From contig NC_067304.1 in NCBI RefSeq assembly GCF_020740795.1, positions 5,012,056 to 5,076,055 of the forward strand: a stretch of 64,000 nucleotides of DNA. Reading direction: 5' to 3'. Shown piece after piece: positions 30,536-57,360 of the stretch. The notes beneath the pieces were generated by a model. It was not told the origin of the DNA, made no database searches, and saw only the letters and a program-made list of their open reading frames with translations. The position numbers and the translations under genes were made by a program. The first letter of the stretch is position 1. The number at the start of each line of letters is the position of its first letter. Origin of the DNA: Apus apus (Eukaryota > Chordata > Aves > Apodiformes > Apodidae).

Positions 30536-32626
30536 TTAAAGTAATCCCTTCTTCTTTTCTGCAATTTGCATAATTAAGTAAGAACCCGTTTCCTCTCCCC
30601 CCATTCCCTCACCAGGCCTGGGTGTGTTGCCAGGGATCGCTGCTGCTGCTGCCGCCGCTTCCTCCGCTCCAAGCAAAACTGCTGCTGCATTTGCAGGCAG
30701 TGACTGGGGACTGGGGGAGGAAGGCAGGGACTGACAGCCTTGTGCTGCTGAGGATCCCTCCAACACCTCAGCGAGGGCAGCTGCATCCTGCTGCAGATTT
30801 GGACCTGCCTTTTGGCTGCTGTACAGTGCCGAGGCACAGGGTGAGGGAGGCAGGTTTGGTGCATCTGGGGTAGTTTCAGCAATGCTGTGTGCAACACTCT
30901 GACTAGCCTGGGCATAAAATCTATTTGCCTAGTCTTCCCTGATGATGGATATATGCTTGAGCTTGGTTATCAATTTATTACTCACCCTGCAAGGCTTTAT
31001 AGAGCAGCCCTGGTGACAGGCAGTGGCACACAGCTAAACCTGCATTGCAACAGGCTGCAGCTCTCACCCAGAGCATGAGGCTGCTCCAGAGGCATTAGAG
31101 GGGTGTCTTTGTCACCTTCATGTCCTCTAAGTCCACCTGACCTTCTCTCCTAGGTACTGGTAGTCCAAGAAGGTTTTTTTCACTGCTCATTTTTGCTTCT
31201 AGGTTGGGCTTAGCTGTCTCTAGAGGGGTTACAGAGATAACCTAACCAGCCTGGGAGACGACAGCATGGAGAACCAGCCTGGGTTCTGCACCAGTACTGC
31301 CCTGTTTGTGTGCCAGCATGCCCCAGCTGGCAAGCCCTGATTCCCTGGGGACAATCTGGATCTGAAACGTTGTTATGAGGAGGTGCTTGGTCTACTCGAG
31401 GACCTTGGTTGCTGATATGCACAGCAGGGTATTCACAGGCTTTGCAGTCAAAATCTTTACTGGTGGGTAAAACCTCCCTCTCCTGCTGGACTTTTACAGG
31501 TTTGAGTGAAATTTCTGTCCTTCTGCAGGGTGATGGTGTTGGACTGTGATAATGATAATAGACAATGATCACCTCAGTCACCTGTCCTCCTGAGAGCTGA
31601 GTGACTTCTGGCACTGCGGTGGAAGCTGTCTCATCCCAAGCCCTGCCCTCTTGTACCTGAGCATCTACAGCCTCCAAATCCCAGGGATGAGCAGATGGAG
31701 ATAAATGTCCATCCACTGAGGGACAAGCCTGAGGGAAGGGGCTTCCATACCCACAATAGTGATGGAGAAACATCTCGACAATGCTCTGAGTCACACTATT
31801 TCAACAGCACACCGTGTCCTATTGCCAGAAACCCCCTTCTCACCCTGGGGGGTTTGGGCCGCTGGCATCCTGATGGGGTGATGCTGCTCAGCTTCCCAAG
31901 TCCCAACACCTCTGGAGGAGCTGGGAAAGGGAACGTGGCACGATGCCGGAACGAGCCTCCAGGCTTGGCATTTTGGGGATGTCACCCTCATGATGGTCCC
32001 TCCTTTTGGTTACGTCCTTCCTCCCGCATGCAAAGTGATGCCAAGGCAATGCCAACATTTCCCGCCTCTGTAGGCTGGGGAAAGAGCTGTGGGGAAAAGA
32101 GTTTGTCCCTTTCACTAGCTGATTAATTCGGTAAATTACAAAGGAAATACATCCTGGGAAAAGCAAGAAAAATTCCCAAAGTTAATCCAACAGTTATTTC
32201 CTCCAGTACCTGGATAAAAACGTGTTCTTCAGAGCTCTTCAGGTCAGACTTTGGTGAGACAGGTGAACCCACATCAAAGAACAAGGTAAAATACTGATTT
32301 TTATCCTTCTGCTCTATGTACTCATGCATATTTCCTTGTATTCCTATGATGTCTCTCTGTAAGGTTGTATTTTTTTCCACGAATAACCTTGATTTTCAGG
32401 GCAAACAGAACTTGCATTGGAAATATGCTGGTTCTGAGGGAAAATTCTTTCTTTCGTGATCAGACTTTGGGATCTGCTGCTTCTGAGTCAGAAGACCTTA
32501 AAAAAATAATTTTATCTGATAAAAATTTTGCAGAAGAACTTTGTCAGTTCAAATACAATATTTTCATGGTGTTTTATTTCTTCTGCTTCTTAGCTTCTTT
32601 TGGGATCTTCTGTTAAATAGTTGGTT

Positions 32627-41300: not shown

Positions 41301-44300
41301 AGGCTGCCTGGGTGAGAGCTCTTCTGTTTTGAGGTGCTGCAACCTAGTGGCTGTGGAGAAGACACTTCAGGACGGGTCACAGCCCTGCCAAGCAGGAAAG
41401 CCCCTGCCTGTGTCTTGGAGCTCACCTCCAGTCACCTGCAGCTGCACTGCCATGGTCTCCCCGTAGTGGCCGTTGTGCTTCACTCCACACCAGTACCACC
41501 CTTGGTCTGACTCTGCCACCGAGTCAAAGCTCAGGATAACGGTCCTGTTGTCAGTGTCACAGGTGACGCCGGGCCCTGGCTGCCTCTGGTCTGAAGCAGG
41601 CATGGGTGTGCAGCTGGGGCTGTCCCACTTGCACCAGTACTTCTCGTAGGAGTAGTACTTGCATGGATAATGACAAGTTAAATCGACCCGGGAACCCACT
41701 CGTGCCTCCACTTCCTTCTCTCCTGTCAGTCCAGGCTCTCCTACAGAGGCAAGAAGAACATCAAGGCTGATGTTAGTGGTTTCAGTGGTGAGAATGGTAG
41801 TCAACAGGTAGTGGTGCTGCTAGGGTTGGTGAACCAGGAGACGTGCCTTTCAGAGAAAGTGCCCCTGACATTGCTAAATTAATGGTAAGGTTGCTGCACA
41901 CACATCTCTGGGTGAAAGCTGGGTTTTTTTGCAAGGCTTAAGAAACACTTGCATGAGAAACTTTTGTGAACACTTTCCCATAAAACAAAACCCTTCTGTT
42001 TCTATTTTAAAGCTACTGGGGGGGGATGGGTATTGGCACAATGTTTTGCCTTGTGCAATAGAAGTTCAGAGTTGAACCTCACATCTCTTCCCAAAAAGCC
42101 ACTTTGACTCCTTTGGGGAGCTTAGGAGGTTGTTTGATACCTACTGAGCAGGCAGAGAATTGCTCTTACCATCTATGATCTTCAGCTGAGTTGATGATTG
42201 CTGCTCCTTCACATCATCTGTCATGCACCAGTAATAGCCTTCGTCCTTGCTCTCCAGCTGGTTCAGGATGATGGTGAATGTGTTGTTGTCTGGGCTCTCA
42301 TACATGGCCACTCTTCCTTCGTAAAAAGGTGCCACGTACCCGTCGTCACTTATGATCCATTCACACCTGTTTGGTTTCCACCTGCACCAGTACTTGGTGG
42401 AGGACCTCTTGAGAGAGTTATAATGGCATTCAAAAGTTGCTGAACTTCCTTTTACTCCAATTATTGTGGGCTTTCCTTGAGGAACACTTGTCTCTGGAAA
42501 TGGAAATGAAACGAGTAGTTGTACATGTCTAACCTGCCCACGTGGCACTCCCCAAGAGAGTGTAGATGCTACCCGATCTAACCAATCTGCTTTGGTTAAA
42601 GCAGGGCTCGGTGAAGCTCAGAGGTGCAGATGGTAGGAGACTGTCCTGGCTCTGCTAGGAATTGATCCCAAAGCATCTCTCAACCCCTTATTTTTCCTGA
42701 GTTCCCTGGACAGCTTTTGTCTCTGTGTACTGACATCTCAAGGAGTTTTTTCCCTCTGCTAAGGGAAGGGCAGGTCCTCTCCCTTCTACATCTGTCATGT
42801 TGAGATTTAAGGAATTGAGACTTGAAGAGACAGTTTGCTTGTATCAAACTGGGAAGTAGAATTTGCCTTCTGGAGTTTTGCCTAGTCAGACTTGGGAAGA
42901 GAGCCAGCCTCTGCTGGGAAAGTGAAGTCTTGATACAAGCTTTGTCAGTGGCTGTTCTGACATTACAGAAGTATCTAGATGGGAGGATAGGACAGTAGCA
43001 CTCTGCAATGGGAAGGTAAAGTTCTTGAATAAGGTGAAACTGCTCATGATGCTTCTAAAGAGGAACAGAGGTGAAGGAAAACCCCCCTGGGAATAGCTCA
43101 CTCACCCTCATAGACATGCACGTCCAGTTCCTTCGTCTCTCCGCTTACCCCGTAGGTGCCGAACCCACACAGGTACAAGCCAGAGTCTTCCCAGCCCATC
43201 TGAGTGATCACAACGGTGAACGAGCCTGGATCCTCCTGAAGGCTCAGCAGAACTCGTCCTTCGAAATCCTTATCAACTTTCTTTCCATTATCAACGATGT
43301 CATAGCAGCCTTTTTTCCCCATCTTGCACAGGTATTTCCTTTCGAGTTCAGCATCCTTCCCAAAGTTGCAGGACACGGTCAAGGTGCTGTGCAGCTTCAC
43401 ATAGTAGAGCTCAGCTCCCTCAGGCAGGTGTGGACCTGTGCATGGAGACACAGGTCAGTGCCAGGCTTTTTTGTCTTCTAGCAGAACATTTCTCTACACT
43501 TTGCTATGTCATATCACGTGCAGCTCCTGCTCAGAGCATGATCCACCCAGGTCCCTGCCCAAGAGTGGTCAGCAGCGTCTAAGCAATGTTTGTGACCTTA
43601 AGATGAGGCTATTTAATCTGATTCTTGGGGCATATTTGTGGTCTAAAAAAATCGTTCTGTAAGAGCACAGGGAAAATGAAACCTGCTGTTCGCTGAAAGC
43701 ATGGAGCATCTGGAGCTCTTAGATGCTGGGCAGACTGTCTGAGGAGCCTTATTAAAAAGTGGGGCAGGGAGGAAGTGAAAGCAAAGGAGCTCCAAGACTG
43801 TAATTACCTTCAGAAACTTCCAGATTGACTTTGTGGGAGAGGCCTCTGCCATTGATCCCCACACCACACTGGTAGGTGCCCGTGTCTGCAGCTGCGAGCT
43901 GGGTGATGTTGATCTGGAAGCTTTCTGCATCTGGGTGGTCAATGATGGAGATCCTGCCTTGGTAGCCTGGAGCAACGTAGCCAGTGGTGGAGACAATGGT
44001 CCTGCAGCCCGTGGCTGATTGCCTGCACCAATATTTCCTGTCGTGTCTGTTCACAGTGGTAGGAGGGTAGAAGCACTTCACAATAACTGACCCGTCGAGC
44101 AGACCGTAAACCTGCCGTGGTCCAAACACGGGGCTTGAGACTGCAAGAGGAATGTTGGCTGTAAATGTCAGCTGTGCTGCAGCACCCATGGGGCTGCAGA
44201 GGGGTTGGGAGGGGGCTGTGCAACAGCAGTGGGGTGTGAAAGGCCCCAGAGCAGTGATAGGGTGGTGACATTCCCTGAACCCTGCTCCCCCCTCAGCAAT

Positions 44301-44438
44301 GGCACCTCTGGTCTCAGGCCACCTGCAGAGCCTGTGCCCAGACAGGTGACACTTACTTGCTGCCTTGGGGAGGTATCTGCTGCTTGCAGGTTGAGCTGGG
44401 AAGAAGGCAAGCAGGAAGATCAACGCTAGTAAAGTCAT
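38183..44438 (-). CDS. PIGR: Polymeric immunoglobulin receptor, complete coding region
   Basis: Epithelial type I receptor that carries polymeric IgA/IgM across the cell and is cleaved to secretory component. Exons in order: 44357-44438, 43808-44140, 43106-43435, 42170-42493, 41426-41740, 40131-40311, 39461-39579, 39232-39357, 39042-39100, 38183-38323; 669 residues. Signal peptide about 1-20; V domains near 29-138, 139-248, 249-356 and 357-461; stalk to 521; membrane segment near 530-552; cytoplasmic tail to 669. Domain 1 has VNRHDRKYWCR, as in human PIGR. Domain 4 matches human domain 5 (TCHYPCK, EKYWCKW, GWYWCGVK) and keeps the two extra cysteines (SPSC, VTCD) that correspond to the pair linking IgA. 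The tail keeps SYRTN and ISMSDFE of the basolateral sorting and phosphoserine region. Four domains, with no mammalian domain 2, is the known bird form. An acceptor just before the ATG (44452) implies a non-coding first exon, as in mammals. Confidence 0.96.
39042..39100 (-). CDS. PIGR: PIGR cytoplasmic exon
   Basis: EFITTGATPGNTAETKKAKR, matching human EEFVATTES...KKAKR. Ends in phase 0 with donor GTAAGA. Confidence 0.9.
39232..39357 (-). CDS. PIGR: PIGR cytoplasmic exon with sorting signal
   Basis: DLVSVGSYRTNISMSDFE and ...SQETQLGGD, matching the human VSIRSYRTDISMSDFE block. Confidence 0.95.
39461..39579 (-). CDS. PIGR: PIGR membrane-segment exon
   Basis: SGESHDPN, then hydrophobic TVALIVGPVGAVLLVLATAF and the basic stop-transfer KYRQLKRS. 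Confidence 0.95.
40131..40311 (-). CDS. PIGR: PIGR stalk exon with hexapeptide repeat
   Basis: Starts GSGADRSLDLLDVDK, then four PSHAEP units and an acidic Ser-rich end ASSDAGEQSAASSG. This is the juxtamembrane region in which secretory component is cut. Phase 1 in, phase 2 out, which fits the next exon. Confidence 0.88.
40198..40269 (-). repeat. 18-bp tandem repeat inside PIGR coding exon
   Basis: Four copies of an 18-base unit, nearly identical, each encoding PSHAEP. On the plus strand each unit carries a run of five or six G. Confidence 0.92.
40375..40680 (+). repeat. CR1 LINE fragment in a PIGR intron
   Basis: Sense CR1 body: GGAGAAAGTCCAGAGGAGGG, CTATGAGGACAAGCTGAGAG, GGAGATTTAGCTCAGACATT and TTAGGAAGAAATTCTTTGCT; it stops at GCTGCCCAG without the CR1 tail. 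It lies antisense to PIGR, 64 bases from the stalk-exon acceptor. Confidence 0.9.
41426..41740 (-). CDS. PIGR: PIGR V domain 4 exon (mammalian domain 5 type)
   Basis: Begins GEPGLTGEKEVEARVG; has TCHYPCKYYSYEKYWCKW and GWYWCGVKHNGHYGE. Phase 1 at both ends. Confidence 0.96.
42170..42493 (-). CDS. PIGR: PIGR V domain 3 exon
   Basis: Begins ETSVPQGKPTII; has TKYWCRWKPNRC and DEGYYWCMTDD. Phase 1 at both ends. Confidence 0.95.
43106..43435 (-). CDS. PIGR: PIGR V domain 2 exon
   Basis: Begins GPHLPEGAELYYVK; Cys in TVSCNFG and DSGLYLCGFG. Phase 1 at both ends. Confidence 0.95.
43808..44140 (-). CDS. PIGR: PIGR V domain 1 exon
   Basis: Begins SSPVFGPRQVYG; has FYPPTTVNRHDRKYWCR and the second Cys in DTGTYQCGVG. 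Enters and leaves in phase 1. Confidence 0.96.
44357..44438 (-). CDS. PIGR: PIGR coding exon 1, signal peptide
   Basis: MTLLALIFLLAFFPAQPASS and following residues; donor GTAAGT leaves one base. A TTTTCCAG acceptor 14 bases before the ATG shows that an upstream non-coding exon is spliced in. Confidence 0.88.
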
Positions 44439-47400
44439 TTTTCTTGCATTCGCTGGAAAAGGCACAGAAATTGGTGAATATTCACACTTGCAAAACGGCT
44501 ACATTAACTTTTCGAGTCATCTAATAATCCTCATGCCTGGAGGATTGTGGCTACTCGAGCTAGGGACAAACAAATGAGAAAAAGGGTAATATTTTCACTT
44601 CTACTTCTCTCTTTTCCTTGGCCAGCTGCAGGTAGATACGAGATGCAGGGCTTTGCCCCTCACCCCTTCAAGCATCAGACTTCAACCCTGTCCCACCTGG
44701 ACATCCACCCCAACCTCCTGCACCAAAACTAACCCTTGGCCAGGGCTTGATGATGGCTATTGAGGAATGACAAACCAAACTACCTGTCTTTTAATGTGCC
44801 CATAGTTTTCAGGATTAATATTTCAGACCTTCCCCTCCTGTTGGACCAAATGACATCTCGGGGGGTGCTGAGGCTCTTGACTCCCTGAGCTGTTTTCCTT
44901 GGCCTGGGCTGAGCCAGGTTGGACACTGTGGGTGTCACGGAGGGAATGTGCACTTCCTGAGCATGGCTGTTGATCTACCAGCCCATTCCAACATCTTGAG
45001 GAGATGGCAGGTGCCAAGAAAGTCTTTACAAACATTTAGAGGAATTTGATTTCAGGGTGTCAAGTGACACAATTTTATGAAGGGTAATTCCCGGTAGAAG
45101 GAAAATGAGTTTATTTCCGTGTGAAGATGAAAGGTGCTCTGTTGGGCTTTCTTCCTTGTATTGCAATTTCTAATTGTTCAGTGGTCACTTGTCTATGGCT
45201 AATAATTAACTCACTGAGCCTGAAAAATGCTCTTTCATACACATCACAGAAGTAGCCAGCAAGACAAACACCCCAGATTCTGCAGAAAGCAAACAGTAGG
45301 GCACAAAAAGGGCCTTGATATTTGCCCCTTGCTCACGGCAGCTCCTCTGGTTGATGGTCACCTTCCTGGCCCCCGCCCCATGCTCTGCAGGACAAGCAGG
45401 ATCCCAGCTCAGCTTTCCCCTTCTTGGCAAAATTTGAATTTTGAATCTGTTATTCTGATTCCTTCCAGACTGGGTACTTCAGGTACTGGCAGCGTTTTGT
45501 CAGGCAGGGAAAGGTTACCAAGACCTCTTTTGGAGCAAAGGTCTAGCAGAAGACACGGGCCAAAGTGGTGGTGTCAGGGGCTTCATGTGCATGCTAGAGC
45601 AGGAATGAATTTTTGCATCTCTGAGGACACGTGTGGTTTGTGTCTGCACAAGAACCACGGTTCCTGTGTGCTCACATGGCAACTTCTGCAGCTCTTGTCC
45701 TGTTATCTCAGATGCTGCTCAAACCTTCCCCCACTCCCTGGAATGGAGAGAACTCCCATGTACAGCAAGTCTGAGCAAGCACAGCTGCTGCTTACGTAAA
45801 GATCTGCTGTACTTCCATGCTGATCCACTGAGCAGGACGGCTGGAAACCCCCTGCCCTGCTGCCTGTGCTGGGCTGCACTCCAGCAGTGACACTTCCCAG
45901 CCCCAAGAAATGGTGCAAATGAGCTTTGCTGGTCATTCTGCCACGAGCAAGCGCCGTTTGAGATGCTGGAGGAGAATTTCATCAAACTATTGGTAAAAGA
46001 GCTCTGGTTGCTCCCTGCTTTCAAAGAACAATCGCTGCTGGATTTGCTCTTTCTAGTCAGAGCATGAGGTTTAAGCCTCAGAGCTCCAGGGAAGAGAAAA
46101 GGCTGCCAAGCTCATGTGAAAGGGAGTGCAAGTAAGTGCCTGTGCAAGTGATTTGTGTTCGTGGTTCTGCAGGTGGAGGGGGAGATGGAAGGAGAGAGGA
46201 GATGGGACAGCAGAGGTTTGCAGGGGGCTGTAGAAGAGGCTTGAAACCAGAGGACAATGCCATGTGTACTGAGTCCAGAGCAGTCAGACAGCAACCTGCA
46301 GGTATGTGTGCCTGGTGTGTGCAAGGTCCCTGGGGCAGCAGGGCTCATGTTTAGACTATTACCGGCCAGGGGCTGGGGCTGAACTCCTTTTTTCTTTGGT
46401 TTTCTATCAGCTACAACTCAAGTCTTGCTTTTGTGTATTTGCTTTCATTTTGCATGGTCAAAGGGGCTTTGAAGGTTTTGGAGCCCAAAATCAGTATTAC
46501 AGCTGAATTCAGGAGATGGGCCAAGCTCTCTGTTCTTACCCCAGGCCTCTGGACAGCAATGTCCCCAAGCTCAGGGCCATGGTGCTGTCCTGTCAGGACG
46601 CTGTGCCCAGGGGTGCTGGTGCTCTCTGGCTGTTTGTGGTTGTGCTGGTGTGTGTACAGTGCAACTGGGAGGTCAAAGAGTCACCTCGTACACAACCGGA
46701 GCAGGAGAGGCTAATCATTAGCAAGGTTAATGCTAACAAATGAAATCATTTAGTTGCAATATGCTTTGAAACAGAAGATAGAGCCATTGCCAGGCAAATG
46801 GCATTAACTTTCTCCTAGCTGCCCATTTTGCCATGTTTGTGACCATGAACTTGGGAACTGCTGCTGAAACCACCACCAAGGGCAACCCAGTGCAGGAGAA
46901 AGCTGGGAAGTGTCCAAGCATTAATTAATTCCAAATATGTATCTATACCATAATGACAGATAAAACTCATGACAACTTGTAACATGTTTCCATAATTTGG
47001 ATTTTGTGGCAAAGACATTTTGATGCTGGGTGTAAAGCTCCGAGGGTCAGGCATGGACATGTCTTTAGTGTCTCTGTCCAGAGAAAGCAGTTCATGGTTC
47101 TTTCATGGGGCAGTGGGAGGTTTGTTGGGAGTGGCACGAGACTTCCCTGGATCCACCAGTGCTGAAAACACTGTGGAACTGTCTGGGTTGGGAAAACCAC
47201 CTTTGTCTCCAGCACTGTCCTGTGCCAAGACTTTGAAATAGTGTGTTGATGTTTCCAGCCAAAAGTGCTGTCAGATCAGGTGAGCTCTCCTAAATATTAT
47301 TTATGAGAAGACCTTCTTTGGGTGTCTGTGGTGTTCCTGTGAATCTCTCCATCCTCAGGAAGGATAACAACATTTATAATGATTTGGAGGGGGTCAGGAC

Positions 47401-50985: not shown

Positions 50986-50991
50986 TTTATT
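50986..50991 (-). terminator. AATAAA poly(A) signal, likely FCAMR-like gene
   Basis: Minus-strand AATAAA in GAGAATAAAATAACC, about 180 bases after the stop of the candidate last exon. Confidence 0.55.
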
Positions 50992-51171: not shown

Positions 51172-51247
51172 CTATGAGGGAAGGGGGCTCTGCCTCAAGT
51201 CTTCATCAGTCACCTTGGAAGGTAGTTTATCTTCCCCTGTGGAGTTC
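51172..51247 (-). CDS. Candidate FCAMR-like last coding exon
   Basis: After a TTTTTTACAG acceptor it reads NSTGEDKLPSKVTDEDLRQS and PLPS, then TAG, followed by a plausible 3' UTR with AATAAA at 50986-50991. Joined straight to the membrane exon it would instead end early as TPQGKINYLPR. Confidence 0.45.
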
Positions 51248-54200
51248 CTGTAAAAAAACCCAACAAAACAAGAGAAACCCTGTGATCTGGTGTGGCCTTT
51301 CTAGAGTGTTTTCACAAGTGATTTTGTGGGTGTTTTTGTCTTTAAGCCAAACTTGGCATTTTAATTGATGTTACAGGGAGTCCTGCAGACAGAAAACTGG
51401 GAAAACCTGGGTCAGAGAGGACTTCTGGAACCAGCCTTCTGCCCAGCTTAAGAGAAGAGTTCTCCTGGGCTTCTTCTCAAACCAGCACCTAGAAACTAAA
51501 GGTACAAATAACTTCTGGTTTACATTCTCATTTGTGGAATTTTTTCACAGAATGTTGGTGGTTTATCAACCAGCGTCCACCCAGAAAAGTGGACACAGGT
51601 TGTGTTCTGTTCTACAGGGTTCAAATTGTCCCAATGGCTTGTTTCCCTCTGCAAATATCTGATGCTAAAATGTTATCACCTGCTTATATGATCAGAGCTT
51701 GGAACTAAGTGCCTTGCCATGAGAATTAGAAAAGCTGTCACCACATTTTTTAAACCACTTTTCTAAGTCTGAGGTGGTTTTTTTTGTTTTTTTGGTTTTT
51801 TTAATGGAGAAGGGTGTATTTCAGTGATAGGAATTTACACAAACTGGATACACTTTAAAATATTTGCTCGGATATTTCACAGACTCATAGAATATTTGTC
51901 TCTCTAAAGAGTATTTCTACCCCAAGACAGGCCGACTGTTTTTTTTGTTTTGTCAGAAGATGAAGTTTTACACATAAATTGATCATCCTGAATCTTCCAA
52001 GGATAGCACAGATGATCCTGCACGAGTAGGAGAAATAAGAATATGATTGCAACACTGAGAAGAATTCCTATGGTGTAATATTGCAGGAGGTTACAAGCAA
52101 TTGGACTTTACTGGAAGGAGGGAGCAGGAAGAGTGATAAAGAGTCCTTCTGAGTAAGCAAAAATTATAATCAAGCCTATAATAAATTTGTAAACTTCATA
52201 TAGAATTTAATTCAAGTCTTGAAATCTATGGCCCAATGTCTCTTGGTAGGGAGAAAAGGCAAGAGTTTGGCATAGGAACATAAATCCTGGGCTGCAGGAT
52301 CGTAGTTCCTGGAGTGCAGACCCAGTGGGTGCCCTGTGCTGCAGGTGTCTGACACACTGCCCTGCAAACCCCCTGCTCAAAATTTGGTTTTAGTCTCTTC
52401 TGCCAAGGGAGGTGACTCTTGCAGTGTCAGTTCCAGAGAACACCCACCTGTGTTTCCCAGGCTCTGTCCTGTGTTCCTGCTCCTGTTCCGGACCAGGCGT
52501 TTCCTCCGTTTGCTCTTTGTCAGGGCTCAGAGCAGCCTGGATTGGTGCTGCTTCCACGTTTCCTATGGAGCTGCTTTCCCCTCCTTAGGAACAAAAACCA
52601 GATGTGTGAGGGAGGGAACAGCTCCTCTCATGCCTGTTAAACTGTGTCACACCCCCCAGTGGATTGGGCCCATTGTTTCCCAGTTTCGTTCTTGGGGGAA
52701 AAAAAAAATATGTATTTCCACTCACCACTGTCTTCACTGAAGGGTTTTCTCCCTAAATTTATGTCTAGTGACACAATATGTTCTAGAATAAGATACATGC
52801 ATGTAATTTTGAAAATCCAGGATTTTTCAGGCAAGTCTTTGTCAGTTTTGCCTGGATTTGGCCCCAAGAAGCTGCCCAGCACGGGGGCACTCATAGTGGG
52901 CTGGTCCCTGCCCTTTATACTTCAGAGTTTCCGAGCACTCACAGGGCTGTAAATCTTCTATACACAAAAACTCAGCCTGGCTTTCAGCAGGACTTCAGAA
53001 TTTCTGTTTGCTTTCTGTTTAAGTATATTAAAAAAAAATAATAATAGAAACCAACACACAAACCAAGAACTTCTCTAGGACTTGGCTCACTTGCAAGTCC
53101 AGTTGCACTTCCAGGCTGCACTGGCTGCAGAATGGATTCATGTCTCCAGAGATGGAAATCTGCAAGGAGTCAGGCTCCAGCTCTTGGGAGTGACAAACAA
53201 AGTCATTGCCAGACAAAAGCCCCAACCCAAAAGGTGTTTGATGCTTGGCCAGCTTACCTGTCTTCTTTTGAAGGTTTATTTTGGTCAGGGCAAGAATAGT
53301 GATCGTGATGAAAATCAGTACAATGAGAACTGGTAACACAACTGGGAGGAAGCCTGAGTCACCTGATGAGCTGGAAAGATGAACCATCACAATTGAATTG
53401 GATTTGGATTCAGCTGTGGGGTGGCTGAAGTACCTGAACTGGTTTTTACACCAAACAGTTTCAGGGAGTTATAAGCTCTGACCGACTCAAAGCAGAACAG
53501 TCAGTAAAGGCAATTAGAGATGAAATGATTCAATCTGGAGTTTCACTTATGAGAAGGGATTTCTGCATCTGCCTCTGCTCTACTGTCTGAGGATGATGGT
53601 CCCAAAATAATGAGGCCCTCCAAAAGGAAAATGAGCTGTGTTCATGATGCAAACTCTCAAGCAAGGCTCATGCTCTTTCTTTAGGACTTGCTGTAGAGCC
53701 TCGTGCAGCTGGAGGGTATTTACTTGCTGTCTCCCTAGGAAAAGGATGTAAGTGCTATCAGAGCTCACCAGGCAGGCAGAGCTTTGCCAGGGGTGGTGCA
53801 AAATCTGACCCTTTCTACAAGAGCATGATTTCCAGCCTCTTCCTGGCTGCATGGTGGGGAGATGTGGGTGGGGATGGAGGGGATGGTGCTTCTGGTGCTG
53901 GGGATCACTGGGGCATGTGTGAGCTCTGAGGAGTGTGGAGGGGCAGCTCAGGAGCTCCAACTGAATTTGGGGACTTTGTGGTTTATCTTCAGTTATGACT
54001 GATGCTGCAGAATCTGCCCGGGCATCAGCTCTTGCAGGTCCCTTCACCCAGCACTGGGTGGTGGCTGTAGTTGGGGTGAAGGTGCAAGAGCTGCTCTCAG
54101 CCCTCCTGGGTAATGGGGAAGCACAGGAGGTGACTTCCCCAGGGAACACACTTGCATGGGGCTGAGCCACAGGGCTTGCTGTGGAGAAATACCATGGAAT

Positions 54201-57200
54201 AATTACTGGCCAAAAGAGCTCCCAGCCTTTTGATGAGCCTTATCCAAAGATAGCTCCTTATGCAACACAGGGCACCCAAACAGTACCCTGGCTGCCTAGA
54301 ACGTCCTGGTTAGAGCCTGCAGAGAAGTTTGTAGCAGCTATTGATTCACCAGCCTTATTGCTCAAGCCTGATGTTTCCTAATGTCCTGTCTCCAGACTGA
54401 CCAAAGGAAAACAGAGAGAGCACATCTACTGACACTGGCATCTGATCTACAGAAGCCACCAGCACCAGATGATTCAGAGACCAGTTCAAACACACATGCC
54501 ACTGATGGGCCTTACCCTCTGTCTTTCTAATTCCTAATGACTCCTGCTGGTGTTTTCAACTTACAGTCTGTGTAGAGCCCTGGGAAATGGGCAGACAGGT
54601 CACAAACCATCGAGGTAGTGCCAATGAGAAAGGTGGTTGAGAACTTACCTCTCGTGATAGATTTCTTCTCCTGGGGAGGTGAGAAAGGTGCTGGGGAGGG
54701 CAGGGGGCAGCAGGGGGCTGGTGCTCTCAGTGATGGTTCCTGTCATGGATGTCAGGACCATGGTGCTCCCCTGCCTGGGCATGCTCTTGGTGGTGGGACT
54801 GGATGACAAAGTGGGTTTCACAGGGGTGGATGTCTCTGGGTCTTGTGTAGATTGGGTTTCTAGAGAGGAAATTATTTTGAGGCTTAAATATCCATATTTT
54901 TGCTGTGAAAATGAATTAGATTCACTCATTTCATCTTGCACCTCAGTGTGAAAAAGTATGCAGCACAATGTGACCAAACTCAAACATTTCTATTTTCCTT
55001 TGAGTCTTACAGAAAGCAGCTAGAGAGTACAAATGAAAACCAATAATACTTGGCAAACATCCATGCTTTAACCCCACTATTTCTGTCTTTGCCAGTTGAC
55101 CAGTGACATTAATCTGTGTGTTTCTAAAACTGCAAGATAACCTCCAGCTTCTCTTCAGAGCAAAGCACACATCTCTGTGCTGCACTTGCAGCAGGATCAG
55201 GATGTCATGTGCTAGGGGTTTGCAGCTTAAATAATATCATTCAAACTAACTAACTTTCCTCTGAAAGCTCAGCTTACATTCCTGCCTCTGAAAACCTTTA
55301 CCATCCCCTCACTTACTTGCCAATAACCATAAGGATGAACAAATAGCTGAAGGTTCTCATGATGTTGTGATATTTATGCATAGTACAAAAGAGGCTGTTC
55401 TTTGAGTGGCCCTGAAGGGGTAGGGGAGAGAGTGATTTAGAAAAAGAAAAGGGGTTTATTACACCCCAAGCCACCCACCACCTACCCTTCTGGATGTGCA
55501 GCCTCACAGGGGATGTGTGCTCCGTGTGCCCGTTTTTGGCCCCGCACCAGTACCATCCCTCATCCTCCTCTCTCAGGTGGCTCAGCACCACCGTGTAGGT
55601 CCCAGGTTCCTGGTCACTGTTGGCTGGTTGTATTCGCCCCCTGTAGGACTCGTGCACAAACCCCTCCGTGTCCACCAGCAGCTCACAGCTCCCTGCCTTC
55701 CACCTGCACAGGTACCTCTTCTTGTAGTTCCCCTGGGGGTCAGAGTGGCACTTCACAAGCACCGAGCCTCCAACTCTGCTGCTGAGATGTTTTGGTCTCT
55801 TGGGAAGGGTGGAGGCTGCAGGTTGGAGAGGACAGTGTTGGCCTTTCATTCTCCTCACTCAGGGCTGTGAGGAACCCAGGCAGCCCCCAGCACCCTGTCC
55901 TACCTGTGGTCACCTGCAGAGCCACCACCTGTGGGCTGTCCCACCCTCTCACTCTTCCTGTCCCACACTGGTACAGCCCCGAGTCTTCTTTTTTTAAGTC
56001 ATTTATCAAGATTTTGAAAGCTCCAGAGCTCCCCTCGGGGGTGATAAAGACTCGTCCTTGGTAACTCCTTCTGACGAAGCCTCTGCTGTCGGCTATGAGA
56101 GTGCAGCTGGTTCTCCCCAGTCTGCACCAGAACCTCTCCTCGCTCCCCTGGGTGTCCCCGGCTGGGCACAGGATGGTGACAGAGCCATGGAGCTGCCCCT
56201 GGACGAGCTTGGTGGTCCCCAGCACACGGGCATCTGTAGGGAGAGAGCGTGGCAGGCACTGCCCAGCATGCAGCCCCCAGCCAGGCAGCAGAGCTCCCTT
56301 GTACTGCTGTGAACAGCCCAATTGGCCACATCTGGGTACATTTATTTGTTGTAAAGAGGGTAGAAAAGCTCTTACCTGCCCAAACTGTCAGGTTCAGCCC
56401 GACATACAGGTCTCTGTTGGTGGTGCCGATGCCGCAGCGGTAAATCCCTGTGTCATCCTTCTTCAGCCCTGTCATTGTCACCAGGAAGGTGCCATTCTGG
56501 GGGATGTCCTCAAGGGACACTCGCCCCACGTGGTGCTTGGAGGTGTAGCCTGTTGTAGAGATGATGGTGTAGCAGCCTCTGTTTCCTGTGACTCTGCACC
56601 AGTATTTTCGGTCGTGTTTGTTGGCTGGTGTGATGGGGTAGAAACATTGATGGGTGACTGAGCCTCCCACCTTCCCTGCCAAAAACCTGGATCCATACAA
56701 GGTGCTTGAAACTGGCTCTATTGGAGAAAGAAGGAAAGAAACCTGGGTCATTGGTTACTCAGATCCTGGCCTGGCAAAACCCAGCACAGCTCCTTCAGGT
56801 CCAGGGCATGATTATGAGTGATACCAGTGGGACATCTGGATCAAAAGGTCAGTGTTTGTTCTGGATGTGCTGTGTTACCTTCCCCGAGTGCCACATTATC
56901 CACTTGAGGAGCAGTGATGGCACAGAGCCACTGCCCAAGCCATGGCACAAGTGGGGAGACCCTCGATGCCCTGAAGTCCCATCAGCCCTGACAGTCCTGC
57001 CTGGAGCTAAATGTCAGGGCAGCAGTTAACAGCAAACATCTAAGGGTAACCTTTGGCACTTGCAAACTCTGCCTGATCTGGCAGCTCTCTCCCCTCTGCA
57101 GTGCTGTGGCACAGGCACCAGCAGCTCCCACAGTGCCAGGCGACAGAGAGCTGGGATTCTCCATCCTCTGCCAGCTCTCTGCAGGCTGCTGGTGGGCAGT

Positions 57201-57360
57201 GCAAGTGGAGGTATCTAGTGCCCACGTGAAGATTTAGCTTGGGATGTACCCATGTCCCCAGTCCCAGCTCTGCCTGTCCCAGGCAGTGGAAGAGGCTGGA
57301 GAGTTGATTTCTCAGCAACTCACCTTGCAGCAAAATTGCCAAGAGGAAGAGAACCACCAT
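51172..57360 (-). CDS. PIGR paralogue with three V domains, FCAMR-like
   Basis: Predicted type I receptor of the PIGR/FCAMR/FCMR family, expected to bind polymeric Ig. Secure exons in order: 57324-57360 (signal), 56376-56717, 55904-56233, 55486-55815 (V domains 1-3), 54649-54859 (Ser/Thr/Pro stalk), 53258-53370 (membrane). Two tentative tail exons, 53091-53124 and 51172-51247, would close the frame at 490 residues. Domain exons are all phase 1 and the stalk is 1-in, 2-out, as in PIGR. Domain 1 has ANKHDRKYWCR and CGIGTTNRDLYVGLNLTVWAG, close to human FCAMR (CGIG...LxLSMNLTISAG) and to its IVST and VALTDFPQ positions. Domains 2 and 3 resemble PIGR domains. It sits upstream of PIGR, where mammals have FCAMR. 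Human FCAMR has only one V domain, so I leave the symbol empty. N-glycan sites include NGTF and NLTV. Confidence 0.82.
53091..53124 (-). CDS. Candidate FCAMR-like tail exon (34 bases)
   Basis: Lies between an acceptor TTCTGCAG and a donor GTGAGC. Enters in phase 1 and leaves in phase 2, exactly what is needed to join the membrane exon to the candidate last exon; encodes ASAAWKCNWTC. Short and without a family match. Confidence 0.3.
53258..53370 (-). CDS. FCAMR-like membrane-segment exon
   Basis: SSSGDSG, then hydrophobic FLPVVLPVLIVLIFITITIL and basic KINLQKKTG. Same start and phase as the PIGR membrane exon. Confidence 0.92.
54649..54859 (-). CDS. FCAMR-like stalk exon
   Basis: Seventy residues rich in Ser, Thr and Pro (ETQSTQDPETSTPVKPTLSS, then TTKSMPRQGS), a likely O-glycosylated stalk. 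Phase 1 in, phase 2 out, as in the PIGR stalk exon. Confidence 0.85.
55486..55815 (-). CDS. FCAMR-like V domain 3 exon
   Basis: Begins ASTLPKRPKHLSSRVGG; has KKRYLCRWKAGSC and DEGWYWCGAKNG. Like the third and fourth PIGR domains of this window. Confidence 0.92.
55904..56233 (-). CDS. FCAMR-like V domain 2 exon
   Basis: Begins DARVLGTTKLVQGQLHG; has EERFWCRLGRTSC, YQGRVFITPE and DSGLYQCGTG. Phase 1 at both ends. Confidence 0.92.
56376..56717 (-). CDS. FCAMR-like V domain 1 exon
   Basis: Begins EPVSSTLYGSRFLAGKVGG; has HQCFYPITPANKHDRKYWCR and the second Cys in DTGIYRCGIG. Closest in pattern to FCAMR. Confidence 0.92.
57324..57360 (-). CDS. FCAMR-like signal-peptide exon
   Basis: MVVLFLLAILLQ plus one base; donor GTGAGT. 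Short and hydrophobic, in phase with the domain 1 exon. Confidence 0.8.

Follow-up and report, generated by a model that had tools for sequence, protein, structure and literature searches.

A 64,000-nucleotide stretch of the Apus apus genome (the window; C24:5012056-5076055 of a 1.10 Gb assembly) carries an intact gene for an FCAMR-like antibody receptor with three variable-type immunoglobulin (V) domains, which we call the 3-V gene. The gene lies between PIGR, the gene for the polymeric immunoglobulin receptor, and PFKFB-type exons. Its V domains belong to the PIGR family, its first domain retains residues that PIGR uses to bind antibody, and its cytoplasmic tail lacks the PIGR sorting signal. 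We consider it probable that the 3-V gene is orthologous to FCAMR and encodes the bird version of this receptor, a member of the PIGR/FCAMR clade of Fc receptors that is anchored in the membrane and would capture polymeric IgM and IgA rather than transport them. It is filed here as an orthologue candidate in the FCAMR position, with a build of its own, that is neither a mammalian-type FCAMR nor a second transport PIGR.

Structure of the 3-V gene

The 3-V gene is on the minus strand and runs from the first base of the start codon at 57360 to the last base of the stop codon at 51172 (plain positions are those of the window), exactly the limits given in a preliminary description of this DNA. Eight exons are predicted, comprising 524 codons and a stop in an intact frame, with entry phases 0, 1, 1, 1, 1, 2, 1 and 2. 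The junctions were inferred from sequence, and all seven introns have GT-AG ends. An AATAAA polyadenylation-type signal lies 180 nucleotides past the stop codon (50986..50991, minus strand).

Exon 1 (57324..57360, phase 0 to 1) begins with the first Met of its open frame, encodes a short hydrophobic signal peptide, MVVLFLLAILLQ, and ends at a GT donor. The three V domains follow in one phase 1 to 1 exon each: D1, of the PIGR-D1/FCAMR type, in exon 2 (56376..56717), D2 in exon 3 (55904..56233) and D3 in exon 4 (55486..55815). Exon 5 (54649..54859, phase 1 to 2) encodes the stalk and exon 6 (53258..53370, phase 2 to 1) the membrane segment. The cytoplasmic tail begins in exon 7 (52448..52583, phase 1 to 2), which has no Tyr and no PIGR sorting signal, and ends with the stop codon in exon 8 (51172..51247).

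The predicted product is a type I membrane protein of 524 residues, in which the signal peptide is followed by V domains at residues 13-127, 127-237 and 237-347, a stalk of 71 residues (54% Ser/Thr/Pro), a single membrane segment with zero charged residues and a tail of 79 residues. The four V-domain cysteines are retained in each of the three domains. N-glycosylation sequons are found at residues 87 and 121, both in D1, and at residue 501 in the tail. The three V domains, short Ser/Thr stalk and membrane segment of the preliminary description are therefore all present. That description also called the exon phases PIGR-like throughout; by inspection, and with the stalk exon of the bird PIGR not located, the two genes agree from the signal exon up to the last V exon (all phase 1) and again in the membrane exon (2 to 1 in both), but not in the first cytoplasmic exon, which is phase 1 to 2 in the 3-V gene and 1 to 1 in bird PIGR.

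Family and position

Each V domain of the 3-V gene matched PIGR chains in the PDB, with best whole-chain E-values, which sum over several V domains of one chain, of 1.8e-62 for D1, 7.7e-57 for D2 and 6.7e-61 for D3. These values place the assignment to the PIGR family far beyond chance, and they bear out the earlier view of D2 and D3 as two further PIGR-type domains. No FCAMR chain was among the best 60 of the 1040 PDB matches of D1. A genome-wide search with D1 gave 11 matches, six of which are V exons of PIGR or of the 3-V gene. The other five (two on C18 and three on C24 at 3.33-3.34 Mb) scored at most 48 bits, against 102 for PIGR D1; from chicken maps, we take these low-scoring loci to be CD300- or TREM-like. 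The predicted model of D1 has a good V fold (predicted local distance difference test score, pLDDT, 87.8), and PIGR or secretory component filled the first 17 of the 50 rows listed by Foldseek.

In a tree with 18 other V domains, D1 paired with human FCAMR at 92/85 (ultrafast bootstrap/Shimodaira-Hasegawa approximate likelihood-ratio test), and the D1 domains of bird, human and mouse PIGR formed a group of their own (91/65). D1, FCAMR and PIGR D1 formed a group that excluded FCMR (91/86; 87/92 with FCMR included), and the 3-V gene does not have the single V domain grouping with FCMR that would mark it as FCMR. The pairing of D1 with FCAMR recurred in all four reduced runs that held FCAMR, with bootstrap values of 86, 92, 57 and 51. 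D1 thus did not fall firmly within bird PIGR, the outcome that the preliminary description had named as telling against its view. Of the two D1 sequence marks cited there for FCAMR, ANKHDRKYWCR and CGIG...NLT, both were located in D1; the first is not distinctive, as the adjoining PIGR reads NRHDRKYWCR at the equivalent site.

The gene order is IL10 family, PIGR, 3-V gene, PFKFB, complement-regulator cluster. IL10-family exons lie at C24:5029470-5030637 (window about 17.4-18.6 kb), PFKFB-type exons at C24:5093251-5095508 and a Sushi (complement-regulator) cluster at C24:5114246-5210589. The FCAMR slot in mammals is that between PIGR and PFKFB2 with the regulators of complement activation (RCA), and the human 1q32 gene order matches the order here. 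The 3-V gene therefore occupies the FCAMR position, with PIGR on one side and the PFKFB-type exons and Sushi cluster on the other, as had been proposed. FCMR, PIGR and FCAMR are described as adjacent in human (PMC6509151).

Weighing the assignment to FCAMR

A number of observations weigh against FCAMR orthology. Mammalian FCAMR is described as having one Ig domain (PMC4016189). Of the mammalian definition, one Ig domain and a glycosylated stalk, the 3-V protein has a Ser/Thr/Pro stalk, with three V domains in place of one, and for this reason it is filed only as a candidate. In extensive screening, Akula et al. report, birds yielded no FCAMR, and neither did fish, amphibians or reptiles (PMC4016189). 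The human FCAMR sequence in our trees, the sole FCAMR row, is an unverified one; a human FCMR sequence of the same origin proved exact over 107 residues, which is encouraging but is no check of the FCAMR row. When that row was left out, the support for D1 dropped to 68/0 and pairing with bird PIGR D1 cost just 0.17 log units (approximately unbiased test, p-AU 0.358). In the full tree, forcing D1 together with bird PIGR D1 cost 5.1 log units with a p-AU of 0.065, which is not a firm rejection, and the corresponding p-AU values in the four reduced runs were 0.092, 0.040, 0.18 and 0.076. None of those four runs united the D1 domains of bird, human and mouse PIGR, so they do not show the soundness of the PIGR side. 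The best single identity of D1 is to bird PIGR D1 (46.3%), above FCAMR (44.9%), mouse PIGR D1 (43.0%) and human PIGR D1 (42.1%). D1 also departs from human PIGR in its ligand loops (Pro26 to Ile, Val29 to Ala, Arg31 to Lys, Asn97 to Thr and Gly100 to Asp). The tail could not be aligned with the human FCAMR tail, also an unverified sequence, and has nil similarity to it (485/1000 shuffles reached the score). The FCAMR-leaning D1 of the preliminary description thus survives as a pairing of moderate support that is lost without that one FCAMR row.

The same evidence bears on the possibility that the 3-V gene arose by tandem duplication of PIGR among sauropsids or birds, then shed one V domain and the sorting tail, and came to resemble FCAMR only through parallel change. 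The gene sits in the slot of mammalian FCAMR, between PIGR and PFKFB, and the full tree both separates the PIGR D1 domains and charges the above cost for holding D1 with bird PIGR. On the side of a duplicate, each of the V domains is PIGR-like, as are most of the exon phases, the adjoining bird PIGR supplies the D1 nearest by identity, and the pairing with FCAMR is not a starred one and hangs on the one unverified row. Additionally, Akula et al. count two copies of PIGR in chicken, on chromosome 26, and one in zebra finch (PMC4016189). Taken together, we regard such a duplicate as unlikely, though deserving of some weight, and favor orthology with FCAMR.

Ligand-site residues and cytoplasmic tail

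In PIGR D1, His32 and Arg34 are described as important for the binding of dimeric IgA and polymeric IgM, and complementarity-determining region 1 (CDR1) as an alpha-helical turn, in place of the 3-10 helices of D2-D5 (PMC4786434). D1 of the 3-V gene retains both residues, along with Asn30, Lys35, Arg99 and Leu101, and the D1 model has a CDR1 helix at residues 30-34, the place matching that turn. The same source describes unliganded PIGR as closed by contacts among D1, D4 and D5, including Arg34-Glu392, and Cys468 and Cys502 of D5 as able to bond IgA (PMC4786434). At the site of D4 Glu392, D3 of the 3-V gene has Arg, while bird PIGR keeps Glu. By alignment, none of the three V domains has the Cys468/Cys502 pair, both members of which are present in domain 4 of bird PIGR. 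The 3-V gene therefore has the CDR1 residues of PIGR but not the bird PIGR arrangement of four V domains, the last with this cysteine pair.

A membrane-proximal sorting segment of 17 residues has been described for the PIGR tail (PMC7956327). The adjoining bird PIGR keeps it, whereas the 79-residue tail of the 3-V protein contains no Tyr, no LeuLeu, no acidic dileucine and no VSxGSYRT-type segment. This tail also seems to lack a recognized signaling motif of its own, and its alignment with the bird PIGR tail was no better than chance (990/1000 shuffles reached the score).

These features speak to whether the 3-V gene could be a second PIGR with a transport role, moving polymeric antibody across epithelium by means of a different tail, as the term "second polymeric Ig receptor" in the preliminary description would imply. 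The CDR1 ligand residues in D1 and the possession of several V domains are what such a receptor would have. The lack of the sorting segment that the adjoining PIGR retains and of the D5 cysteine pair in any domain goes against the transport sense of that term, and we consider this reading very improbable. That the 3-V gene is a decaying or unexpressed copy, as its short signal peptide might suggest, is scarcely credible for a gene with 524 codons free of stops, seven of seven GT-AG introns, an AATAAA signal after the stop codon and four V-domain cysteines kept in every domain.

Domains 2 and 3

D2 could not be tied to a single PIGR domain, as D1, D3 and D4 of PIGR score alike. For D3 the best score in each of three species was against PIGR D4, at 63.0 bits (7jg2), 59.6 bits (human) and 60.0 bits (bird, over the whole open frame). 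By tree, its grouping with D4 and its grouping with D5 were separated by only 0.3 log units. The D3 model has a good V fold (pLDDT 88.5), with mouse PIGR domain 2 in the top two Foldseek rows, and is uninformative on D4 versus D5.

Along its length, D3 is D4-like over the first ~80 residues and D5-like over the last ~27, a trend reached by 1/5000 column permutations with three species pooled (human 2/5000, mouse 18/5000, bird 118/5000). Among eight control domains, FCMR gave 46/5000 and the other seven 518 to 2067 of 5000. The pattern is suggestive of a D4/D5 exon fusion, which, if true, would take four V domains to three in a single step. Because the FCMR control leans the same way, though less strongly, we treat the fusion as a lead and not as a result.

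The introns of the 3-V gene that were examined yielded nothing convincing as a remnant of a fourth V domain, though weak traces may exist. In the intron between D3 and the stalk, the scores against bird PIGR domains 2, 3 and 4 were reached by 9/60, 40/60 and 14/60 shuffles, and in a larger run against domain 4 by 192/500. The intron between the stalk and the membrane segment gave 3/60 and 18/500 against domain 4, in an alignment that spans two stops and large gaps. On the opposite strand of the intron between the signal exon and D1, a short Cys/Trp-rich match gave 1/60 for domain 4, and 0/60 and 14/500 for domain 3. Given nine intron tests, we ascribe the low shuffle counts to chance.

Neighboring genes and other features

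The adjoining PIGR gene occupies about 39-44.5 kb of the window on the minus strand, the same strand as the 3-V gene. Its four V exons lie within 43755-44498, 43101-43454, 42144-42617 and 41370-41819, in agreement with the four V domains described for bird PIGR (PMC4786434, PMC9716071). Its membrane exon, at about 39.58-39.46 kb, has phases 2 to 1, and its tail exon reads DLVSVGSYRTNISMSDFE, the retained sorting segment.

One human FCMR V domain, used as a query against the genome, revealed no separate FCMR; its six matches all fall within PIGR or the 3-V gene. A profile built from 19 V domains recovered the seven known V exons of the window and then only a 26-residue scrap (31213-31800, E 0.07). 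In mammals, FCMR sits between the IL10 family and PIGR; in the corresponding interval here, 18600-39000, the profile found no FCMR-type V domain.

Outside the window, about 85-141 kb beyond the 3-V gene, many Sushi matches in C24:5154000-5210600 have a partner of equal score at an unvarying distance of about 34.64 kb (5161242/5195881 and 5163830/5198469 are examples); a block of ~35 kb has either been duplicated in tandem recently or been duplicated in the assembly. Elsewhere, a dense V-set cluster at C17:5595865-5616145, with at least 16 matches in 20 kb on both strands, may represent an immunoglobulin V array or some other cluster of receptors. Large beta-keratin arrays lie at C26:5.67-6.07 Mb and C28:0.80-1.05 Mb, with evenly spaced, equal-score copies on C26. 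The search for this family gave 134 matches among 150 scored candidates, in line with a bird genome.

Discussion

If the 3-V gene is the bird orthologue of FCAMR, its sequence suggests how the receptor may work. As His32 and Arg34 are kept, D1 would be the antibody-binding head for polymeric IgM and/or IgA that contain J chain, engaging them by the same CDR1 face as PIGR does. Two spacer domains and a mucin-like stalk would carry D1 in an open state: with no D5 cysteine pair and with Arg at the Glu392 site, the closed, self-masking form of PIGR is not expected. The prediction is thus of an unmasked binding head. Since the tail has no transcytosis signal, blood or immune cells would use the receptor at their surface to retain or internalize polymeric antibody and immune complexes, and not to carry them across epithelium, which makes the 3-V gene a candidate for the capture of polymeric IgM and IgA outside epithelia in birds. 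By analogy, display on blood cells is plausible, because chicken FCAMR underlies a red-cell blood group.

As a gene it is not new: FCAMR has already been named in chicken, where the E blood system is assigned to it, within or near the RCA region (work cited by PMC9957549 and PMC11188259), and what is new lies mainly in the build. The chicken gene and the 3-V gene share a neighborhood and are most likely one and the same gene in two birds. The later naming of chicken FCAMR as the E blood-group gene stands against the published view that birds lack FCAMR (PMC4016189), and one of the two chicken "PIGR copies" of Akula et al. may, we infer, be the gene in the FCAMR position. The three-domain build, the missing transport signal and the lost Glu392 lock were not found in our literature search, which took in few papers beyond listing level and did not cover bird sequence-database records.

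While the origin of FCAMR has been placed in early mammals (PMC4016189), an intact three-domain gene in the bird FCAMR slot points to an earlier and possibly multi-domain origin. More tentatively, the amniote ancestor might have had a multi-domain FCAMR beside PIGR, of which birds keep the older, three-domain form, with a last domain that is perhaps a D4/D5 fusion, and mammals a form cut to one domain; in birds, where our searches gave no FCMR, this receptor would then be the only member of the clade that handles polymeric IgM and IgA without transport, on blood cells. We put this forward as a possibility that is less likely than otherwise.

Among known receptors, CD300 and TREM share the V fold with the 3-V gene; CD300 structures come after PIGR in the Foldseek list for D1, and the V domains elsewhere in the genome fall well below PIGR D1 in score. 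FCMR has a V domain of the same clade, whose residues at the sites of PIGR His32 and Arg34 are likewise His and Arg, but has only that one domain, and D1 of the 3-V gene is further from it than from PIGR or FCAMR. PIGR shares with the 3-V gene its V-domain family, the phase 1 V exons, the membrane exon phases and the CDR1 residues His32 and Arg34. It differs in the number of V domains, four in birds and five in mammals, and in the Cys468/Cys502 pair, the Glu392 residue and the tail transport signal, all of which the 3-V gene lacks. FCAMR, in mammals and as the chicken gene of that name, matches it in the position between PIGR and PFKFB/RCA, the stalk, the single pass through the membrane and, with moderate support, the type of D1.

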